Below, piece by piece: positions 34,528-36,756 of a DNA stretch of 48,782 nt. Below the pieces are notes generated by a model. It worked only from the letters and a program-made list of their open reading frames with translations, did not search any database and was not told where the DNA came from. Made by a program: the position numbers and the translations under genes. Every line of letters begins with the position of its first letter. Within the stretch, counting starts at the first letter, position 1. The stretch covers positions 1-48,782 of the forward strand of contig JABWCG010000003.1 in assembly GCA_013359225.1 (NCBI GenBank), written 5' to 3'. The DNA comes from Candidatus Buchananbacteria bacterium. GTDB taxonomy: Bacteria > Patescibacteriota > Patescibacteriia > Buchananbacterales > UBA6539.

Positions 34528-34556
34528 TTGACAAAGTCTGGCCTTTGTGCTATTAT
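34528..34556 (+). promoter_or_regulatory. Promoter of the isolated RNA gene
   Basis: Consensus TTGACA (34528-34533), 17-base spacer, TATTAT (34551-34556); transcript start expected near 34563. Confidence 0.8.
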
Positions 34557-34562
34557 GACCAG

Positions 34563-34887
34563 TTACCTTGAAAACTAAAAATCTGTCTAGAAGTCTGCAG
34601 ACTGCCCAAACAGGGTCATCCTCCGGAGTGCTTCTTGTGCGCTACACAAGGAGGGGCTTCATTGTGTCTGTGGAATTTTGGGTAGCAGGTATGAAACCTT
34701 GTACCTTTTCAACAACAAACCTCCTTTCATCTGCTATCCAATGTTCTGCAGGCACGACAAGCACGAAGTTTCTTTTCTGGAAAATCTGGCTCAGGCTCGA
34801 TTTTTCCAAAAAATAACCTTCTTGTCTGCAGACTTCTGAACAGATTTCTGTTCTTACTACGGAAGTCGCCTACTGGCGGCTTTTTTA
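34563..34887 (+). ncRNA. Candidate structured non-coding RNA, about 320 nt
   Basis: An isolated unit with a consensus promoter and a terminator but no convincing coding frame. A long closing helix joins 34581-34602 to 34824-34845 (20 of 22 pair, including AGAAGTCTGCAGAC with its complement). Inside it are CTTCTTGTG/CACAAGGAG (34631-34655), GGGTAGCAG..ATGAAA/TTTCATCTGCTATCC (34680-34739) and TGGAAAATC/GATTTTTCCA (34778-34808). CTGCAG occurs three times. The architecture is multibranched with paired ends, as in RNase P RNA or tmRNA, yet none of their conserved core sequences, nor SRP or 6S landmarks, can be recognised. Expression strand is from promoter and terminator. Confidence 0.65.
34863..34887 (+). 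terminator. Terminator of the candidate RNA
   Basis: AGTCGCC and GGCGGCT form a 7-bp stem with loop TACT, followed by TTTTTT. It overlaps the stop of the convergent VanW-family gene. Confidence 0.88.
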
Positions 34888-36756
34888 GTTATTAACGTCC
34901 GCTGCGGCACCCGGATCAACAACCGCCTCGGTTGTTGTTGCGGCTACCGGGTCAACACCAACCATCCAAACTTCTGGCCATGCCACATAATGACTCTTAA
35001 ATTCCTGCTCTTTAACTTCGCCGTTTGGATAGATAATGGTGTATTTAAAATAGGTGTCGGCTCCCGGATGGGCTGATTCAACTTTTTTCTTTTCGCCAGG
35101 CGCCAACTCCGTTGTTTCAATGTAGCGCGGCGCACCAGGACTGGTAACGTTATAAATTGTTGGCGGATCAGGATCAATAATTGCCTGGCGGCCGTCTTTG
35201 GTGCCGTAGAATTCGAAAACCAAAGTATCGCCTTCCATTTTAGCAATAAACAAAATATGGTACCCGGTGTCATTTAAAAATTTCAAATCCGGCGCGGGGT
35301 CATAAATGGTGGCATCCATGCCCGCCGGTTCATAATAGACAACTCGATATGAATGATTGCGGCGCTGCACAATCGGCAAACCAGAGTATAGCGCTGCCCG
35401 AAATGTTGTGGTACCAATTTGGCATAAGCCGCCGCCGTATTCCGGAACGGTTCGATTACCTTTAATCACTAACTCCTGCAAATACCCATTTTCACCGTCG
35501 ATTTCTCCCAACGCATCGAGCAACGAAAATTCTTCGCCGGGGGCAATCAAAATACCGTCCAGACTCTTTGCACCGGTAGCGATATTATGCCGGCGATTTT
35601 TCGGACTGCCGGCAAAATTTGATGTGCCGCGCCCGATCAATTCCTTGATGCCTAAATTATTTAATTCTGAAGTTGCGACTTTAGCCGGATCAACTTCCAC
35701 CACCAATTCAATCGGCAGGGCGCTGCCAATAATAATTTGTTGATTAATCTTCTCATAGCTCGCATCAACGCTCAGCTTTTTACCATCTTGGCTGCTTTGA
35801 AATTCCGTAACACGATCACCTTCAAGCGTAAACTTAGCATCACTGGCCGGCACGTCAATATCTTTTGCCAAAGGTGTTAAAAACTCAACAACTTTATCTT
35901 TATTAAAACCGACAACAATTTCGCCTTCTAATTCCTGGAACTCAAGCCAATTAACAAACTCCGCTTTTGGCACTGTCCAGCTTTGATCTTCATAAGCCAA
36001 AGTCAATTCATCAATCACTAAAATCTTTTCGATACTGTTGACAGCTGACGCGGTTTGATTTTTTTTGATTGCCGGCTCCTGGAACACTAAGTCCATTTGG
36101 ATTGGTTCAAAATTCAAGGCTGTAATCTGATTAACCAGTTTATCAACTGCCAAATCATAATCAAACAAATATCCGGATTCTTCGCCAGTCACTGCAACGC
36201 TATCGCCGTCAATTTTTAAACCGGCATTTACTGGTGGCTTTTCCATTTCCGATAAACTGGAGCGCAGCGCATTCAACAGCTCGGCTCGATCAAGATTGTA
36301 ACTAATTTGCACGCTAGTACCCGACACTAAAGCCTTAGCCTGAGCGGCAAGGTCGCCAAACCAGCTGCTGCGCCGACCGACTTGCCAGGCCTCGTCTGCC
36401 GTTTTATTCCAGTCAAAAGTCAAAATCGGCTTGGCTAAATCGGGATCAGCCGCTGTGATAGTAATGGGGTTAATCACCACTTCTTTTTCTAAAGTTTTAA
36501 AAACTAAACCTTTAGTTTGAATATTTTTTTCAATGCTATCCAAATAGCCCAAGACCTGCTGTCGCGATTGTCCGCCAACATCCAGATAGCCAATTTTTAC
36601 CCCCCGATAAAACTTCTTAGCATAAGACTGTTCATACACTACTACTCCCGTAATCAACACTGTCACGAGAACCAAAAAAAAGACGGCGAAAATCAACCAT
36701 CTTTTTTTACTTACAACCATCTTTTTGTTTTCCTCGCTATGCTTGCTTGGCGTCAT
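34885..36756 (-). CDS. VanW-family protein with N-terminal membrane anchor
   Basis: 623 aa. A short charged N-terminus is followed by one membrane helix (about 19-42), then two repeats of a putative peptidoglycan-binding type domain (GVKIGYLDVGGQSRQQVLGYL and a later copy), and the VanW domain at about 390-510: NIATGAKSLDGILIAPGEEFSLLDALG, PEYGGGLCQIGTTTFRAALYSGL, RRNHSYRV and YDPAPDLKF. A beta-rich (G5-like) C-terminus and an Ala/Val/Asp-rich tail follow. The protein faces outside. VanW proteins occur with glycopeptide-resistance loci but also broadly in Gram-positives and CPR; biochemical role unknown. Start overlaps the DUF3006 gene by 4 bases. Confidence 0.9.
   Translation of the reverse strand: MTPSKHSEENKKMVVSKKRWLIFAVFFLVLVTVLITGVVVYEQSYAKKFYRGVKIGYLDVGGQSRQQVLGYLDSIEKNIQTKGLVFKTLEKEVVINPITITAADPDLAKPILTFDWNKTADEAWQVGRRSSWFGDLAAQAKALVSGTSVQISYNLDRAELLNALRSSLSEMEKPPVNAGLKIDGDSVAVTGEESGYLFDYDLAVDKLVNQITALNFEPIQMDLVFQEPAIKKNQTASAVNSIEKILVIDELTLAYEDQSWTVPKAEFVNWLEFQELEGEIVVGFNKDKVVEFLTPLAKDIDVPASDAKFTLEGDRVTEFQSSQDGKKLSVDASYEKINQQIIIGSALPIELVVEVDPAKVATSELNNLGIKELIGRGTSNFAGSPKNRRHNIATGAKSLDGILIAPGEEFSLLDALGEIDGENGYLQELVIKGNRTVPEYGGGLCQIGTTTFRAALYSGLPIVQRRNHSYRVVYYEPAGMDATIYDPAPDLKFLNDTGYHILFIAKMEGDTLVFEFYGTKDGRQAIIDPDPPTIYNVTSPGAPRYIETTELAPGEKKKVESAHPGADTYFKYTIIYPNGEVKEQEFKSHYVAWPEVWMVGVDPVAATTTEAVVDPGAAADVNN

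Follow-up and report, generated by a model that had tools for sequence, protein, structure and literature searches.

Several structured RNAs that have been described in bacteria can be compared with the RNA gene reported here. The closest in manner of working, and in that respect only, is the raiA motif, or ModT RNA, of Bacillota and Actinomycetota, which is stand-alone, strongly conserved, structured and widespread in its lineages, and which also acts in trans, is housekeeping-like and has variable neighbours (PMC11706538), trans action being what we infer for the new RNA. However, the new RNA has no sequence or structure match to it (there is no Rfam match), occurs in a different phylum, and has a distinct core and a smaller short form. 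6S RNA (RF00013) resembles it in being the product of a single gene and a rod-like hairpin with an internal loop, but the new RNA has a one-sided bulge of 10 nt instead of a large bubble, and its conserved sequence is unlike that of 6S RNA, again with no Rfam match. The small bacterial SRP RNA (RF00169) is also a hairpin of about 100 nt, made from one gene with a strong promoter, but it gave no match, its partner Ffh is absent from ABY1 Patescibacteria, a large class of uncultured, very small bacteria that includes the host studied here, and the domain IV motifs are absent from the new RNA. RNase P RNA (RF00010) and tmRNA (RF00023) share paired ends and, with the long form, a length of about 300 nt; their cores are not shared, however, and RNase P RNA has its own gene elsewhere in the same genome, while tmRNA exists alongside the new RNA in most ABY1 genomes.

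The new RNA gene lies in a window of 48,782 nucleotides, the whole stretch analysed here, from a Candidatus Buchananbacteria bacterium (contig JABWCG010000003.1). Its features, and the gene that follows it, are listed below.

34528-34556, plus strand: sigma-70-type promoter, TTGACA-17-TATTAT, with TG before the -10 (sequence scan)
34562-34565, plus strand: start-site element GTTA, a G-T-Y about 6 nt after the -10 (conserved in homologous promoters)
34563-34887, plus strand: predicted RNA gene, long form, about 325 nt with the terminator (fold z-score; family- and order-level homologs)
34579-34602, plus strand: closing helix P0, 5' strand (fold)
34604-34616, plus strand: hairpin A, GCCC/GGGU (fold; seen in family-level relatives)
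34619-34655, plus strand: hairpin B, UCCUCC/GGAGGG stem with a conserved GUGC in the loop (fold, alignment)
34656-34762, plus strand: helix C; the class-wide P1 5' strand is part of its 3' strand (34743-34757)
34720-34728, plus strand: CCUCCUUUC, part of the loop of helix C and the same sequence as the anti-Shine-Dalgarno tail of bacterial 16S rRNA
34745-34833, plus strand: class-wide core, about 89 nt (covariance model match, E = 5.7e-19; covariation)
34755-34764, plus strand: near-invariant 10-nt bulge CGACAAGCAY (CGACAAGCAU) opposite a single U (columns of 74 diverse members)
34818-34824, plus strand: CUUCUUG, 3' partner strand of the bulge region (alignment, covariation)
34824-34847, plus strand: closing helix P0, 3' strand, including GUCUGCAG, the class-wide P1 3' strand (fold)
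34861-34887, plus strand: intrinsic terminator, stem at 34861-34884 and then T
34885-36756, minus strand: VanW-like gene, the convergent downstream neighbour (named by sequence reading)

The initial annotation of this DNA had described an RNA gene with a consensus promoter, a T-rich terminator and no usable reading frame, and these parts of the description held. The promoter, with TTGACA at 34528 and TATTAT ending at 34556, matches at 11 of 12 positions and was the top site across 4 kb; the terminator stem has T behind it; and the longest reading frame inside the gene is an 82-aa TTG frame, with homolog alignments displaying indels and compensatory changes rather than coding conservation. The minimum free energy of the RNA (34563-34887) was -130.5 kcal/mol, compared with -80.1 +/- 5.1 kcal/mol for shuffled sequences (z = -9.84), and none of 100 shuffles folded as low. 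The same annotation had placed three hairpins within a closing helix of 22 bp with 20 pairs. The helix exists and the fold is multibranched, but P0 was counted at 23 pairs with a 1-nt interruption (8 bp at 34579-34586/34840-34847 and 15 bp at 34588-34602/34824-34838), and four branches were found within it, namely the hairpins at 34604-34616 and 34619-34655, the long helix at 34656-34762, and the core hairpin at 34765-34821.

When the 4227 families of Rfam 15 were searched with their covariance models, none scored above its curated threshold in the RNA stretch, in agreement with the earlier statement that no family could be recognised. A search with lax filters over the element returned noise-level matches, none of them credible, the only Rfam matches in the whole window were tRNAs, and the core at 20 further loci had no Rfam match under lax filters. 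One option offered at the outset, a very divergent housekeeping RNA, is not supported for either RNase P RNA or tmRNA. RNase P RNA is encoded by a separate gene in the same genome (C1:295779-296153 of G000, 185 bits for RF00010), and therefore the new RNA is not RNase P RNA. As to tmRNA, the new RNA was recognised as such by neither RF00023 nor ARAGORN, and most related genomes carry tmRNA separately, a full RF00023 match being present in 35 of 38 sampled ABY1 genomes. The window's own genome appears to be without tmRNA: RF00023 gave tRNA-like scores only (best, 31.8 bits), and ARAGORN reported none in 970 kb. In the literature searched, there was no description of a conserved RNA from ABY1 or Patescibacteria.

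When 192 related genomes were searched with BLASTN, clear homologs were identified within the same family (E from 1e-28 to 1e-46), and in many genomes of the class a shorter match, restricted to query positions 225-320, was obtained. A covariance model (R1), built from 74 diverse cores, had matches in 251 of 286 ABY1 genomes (219 of the 242 of good quality), with E-values down to 1e-22. The RNA is usually present in one copy per ABY1 genome; most members of one family have two. The model had no match in approximately 347 genomes of non-ABY1 classes of Patescibacteria, and when 380 genomes sampled across the phylum were searched, all matches fell within ABY1. A pattern scan of GTDB species genomes yielded at least 115 stretches, an apparent chance match (L129) having been left out. 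The named records among the matches listed were mainly Uhrbacteria, Magasanikbacteria, Falkowbacteria, Kerfeldbacteria, Komeilibacteria and Buchananbacteria, lineages of class ABY1; other records among the matches listed were titled Parcubacteria, Patescibacteria or bacterium only. Some reduced ABY1 lineages seem to have lost the RNA, since a whole genome of 585 kb (G184), from a family without matches, had no match even at E <= 10, and the RNA is thus not universally essential. Conservation in relatives, which had been proposed as a check with the closing helix as the query, is class-wide for the core of about 89 nt in the 3' half, but the closing helix itself is confined to the long form, which is specific to one order.

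The core is a hairpin with strongly covarying helices on either side of the bulge, and its elements follow the order P1, CGACAAGCAUGGGR, P2, an apical part usually with a UNCG-like loop cap, UUCUU, and the P1 partner strand. Within CUUCUUG, the G closes P1, and in the class consensus the UUC pairs with the GGG of P2. Across the 74 diverse cores, 94.3% of cells were paired in this structure compared with at most 51% when it was slid along the alignment, cells with changes on both sides numbered 325 compared with 95 +/- 8 in shuffles, and the covariation score was 0.558 compared with 0.185 +/- 0.009 in shuffles; column shuffles ignore relatedness, whereas the slide control takes account of it and agrees. 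P1 has been rewritten repeatedly with the bulge fixed, for instance as CUGCAGGC/GUCUGCAG, CGCGCUC/GAGCGCG, UGCAUCC/GGAUGCA and GGUGGC/GCCACC. The covariation that the initial annotation had suggested looking for is therefore strong across divergent members, in the core as well as in the long form. With deep conservation, strong covariation and no Rfam match, the other option offered there, a new class, is the one supported: the RNA is a new stand-alone structured RNA family, near-universal in ABY1, where "new" refers to the family and the mode of action is possibly of a known kind.

The long form is a lineage-specific, order-level version of the RNA with extra helices. In it, the P1 5' strand is duplicated, with one copy in P0 and the other in helix C, and A, B and C lie between the copies. 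Alternative foldings are possible because both copies can pair with the one 3' strand. In relatives, the outer pairs of P0 are compensated and the inner 9 are invariant; in helix C, 93% of cells are paired and 6 pairs have two-sided changes; and the covariation score of ten long forms was 0.352 compared with 0.192 +/- 0.014 in shuffles. The CCUCCUUUC in the loop of helix C was kept in 7 of the 10 long forms (alignment reading), and the idea that it may serve as an anti-Shine-Dalgarno mimic has been noted. The same sequence is present in relatives L002-L004, L006, L008 and L190, with a conserved GUACCUUU close by. Two further arrangements were observed. In L005 (G004:C58), the helix C loop is broken by an insert of about 110 nt with long inverted repeats (acccgcccgaattttg...caaaattcgggcgggc), resembling a small mobile element, and in the Buchananbacteria loci L028, L030, L038, L057 and L092 two tandem cores lie about 215-240 nt apart, and several of the spacers between them, which contain a conserved UUGUCACCUUCCAU, appear to be closed off by another helix.

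At least two unrelated phage lineages also carry compact copies of the RNA, with ABY1 as a possible host; the two phages are represented by IMGVR_UViG_3300025319_000044 and IMGVR_UViG_3300009529_000046. Three viral contigs of one phage (L255-L257) contain a compact core with a P1 of 8 pairs, including wobbles, and a P2 of 10 pairs. Viral contig L304 has another, divergent core, with a P1 of 8 pairs and a P2 of 13 pairs (hand counts in both cases). In both phages the bulge is kept and the P1 and P2 helices are re-drawn, the core is located in a gap of the structural gene region, and the contigs encode the large and small terminase subunits (PHROGs matches). As a background, none of 15 other viral contigs matching looser patterns had a comparable P1 plus P2. 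Matches L293/L294, which are inside a terminase gene, antisense and without helices, and the looser-pattern matches L295-L303 and L305-L321, also without helices, were judged to be due to chance. Right behind the L304 core, on the minus strand, there is a second long hairpin (CUGUAAGCAC/GUGCUUACAG) followed by further inverted repeats, and the phage RNA may therefore be a larger multi-domain transcript.

The bulge remains unchanged while both flanking helices change completely, which makes it a candidate binding site. The reading that we favour, at a probability of about one half, is that the RNA is a trans-acting, housekeeping-like ribonucleoprotein RNA, either an RNP scaffold or a sequestering RNA, whose bulge would bind a conserved factor. 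According to this proposal, the RNA would be transcribed and act in trans, and its stems would position the bulge so that a single conserved factor of ABY1 recognises it. This factor, which the RNA would scaffold or would regulate by sequestration, is most likely either a protein that binds RNA or a complex of translation or transcription. The minimal copies in phages would capture or recruit the same factor, and in the long form the duplicated P1 strand would offer either of two partners, perhaps allowing switching. The job of the RNA is probably a basic one. A more far-reaching version, that ABY1 depends on a class-specific housekeeping RNP with the bulge as its recognition site and that phage mimics hijack or block this particle, is put forward tentatively, as we consider it possible but on balance doubtful.

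An invariant bulge could also be explained by a base-pairing target, a small-molecule ligand or tertiary packing. The first of these would make the RNA a base-pairing small RNA, with the unpaired bulge as the seed for a conserved target such as 16S rRNA or a widely kept mRNA, and we regard it as rather unlikely. The sequence ACGACAAGCAUG is complementary at 11 of 12 positions to CAUGGUUGUCGU in the 16S rRNA of the same genome. However, this 16S site varies within ABY1 (CATGGTT in 117 genomes, CATGGCT in 25), and the RNA genes read from 11 of the genomes with the CT variant all keep CGACAAG, so that compensation is absent; likewise, the window's family has CACG in the RNA where the 16S rRNA keeps CAUG. 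Because variants of the rRNA site are unmatched by changes in the RNA, pairing with 16S rRNA is not supported, and a protein, a ligand or a tertiary contact would better explain the fixed bulge. Furthermore, no other exact complement of the class-consensus 10-nt bulge was found in 970 kb of the window's own genome, near matches being scattered, and it is rare for an ordinary small RNA to have a seed that is fixed throughout a class.

A regulator that binds RNA polymerase, acting in the manner of 6S RNA, is an improbable alternative to the ribonucleoprotein RNA that we favour. The single copy, the strong promoter and the rod-like hairpin with a central asymmetric loop would all suit such a regulator, and the role could be vacant, as RF00013 was found in none of 57 ABY1 genomes. 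In contrast, the loop has 10 nt on one side and 1 nt on the other, unlike the large two-sided bubble of 6S RNA, and the absence of 6S RNA from ABY1 is not established, since the Rfam model is weak and found only 5 of 14 control genomes.

The genomic context bears on whether the RNA could instead be a cis-acting element (a riboswitch, leader or 3'-end element) of a neighbouring ClpP-like or VanW-like gene. The locus is conserved: a VanW-like gene lies at most three genes away from the RNA in 115 of 141 loci, and is immediately downstream and convergent in 81; near neighbours also include a ClpP-like gene (66 of the 141) and an Hsp20-like gene (53), all named by sequence reading. The location of both phage elements in gaps of the structural gene region could be taken in the same way. 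However, the RNA gene is predicted to be its own transcription unit, with a strong promoter and usually a U-tract or terminator. Of 132 cores, 100 have a promoter (TTGACN, 16-18 nt, TANNNT) in the 150 nt that precede them, compared with 5 of 339 control windows, and a downstream U-tract follows 111 of 131 cores compared with 146 of 340 controls. In 100 homologous promoters, the start region has the pattern G-T-Y (G 72%, T 96%, T/C 95%), which is not general: at the other strong promoters of these loci, the T is present in 44%. It is unlikely that the RNA serves as the leader of one gene, because the downstream gene is mostly convergent and the neighbours vary, the RNA persisting even where they differ; for example, in L176 (G024) the core lies just downstream of the 23S and 5S rRNA genes. 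The extra domains of long-form RNAs are a further argument against a cis-acting element, which we consider quite unlikely.

That the RNA is a divergent signal recognition particle RNA is very improbable. Its size and hairpin shape would fit, and RF00169 was found in none of 57 ABY1 genomes (E <= 0.001), but SRP RNA was equally undetected in the other Patescibacteria among 96 Patescibacteria genomes searched, which themselves lack the new RNA. The Ffh M domain (PF02978) was found in none of 54 ABY1 genomes compared with 14 of 14 controls, and no SRP domain IV motifs are visible in the new RNA. The absence of ffh and ffs from Parcubacteria, published in 2015 (PMC4508563), agrees with our result for ABY1. 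As ABY1 lacks both SRP RNA and Ffh, the new RNA is not a cryptic SRP RNA. Finally, a selfish or mobile element that has no function in the cell, to which the phage copies and the two tandem copies in one family might point, is highly unlikely, because the usual single copy per genome and the synteny kept across most of the class indicate vertical descent.

The retention of an additional RNA gene deserves attention because Patescibacteria have been stripped even of SRP. The covariance model provides a quick marker for ABY1 genomes, and the invariant bulge is a defined bait for a partner search. The phage copies give an independent handle on the function of the RNA and on phage-host links of uncultured hosts. 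A near-universal, usually single-copy structured RNA of a whole class, absent from Rfam and from the literature searched, suggests that the current annotation of Patescibacteria lacks a piece of basic biology.
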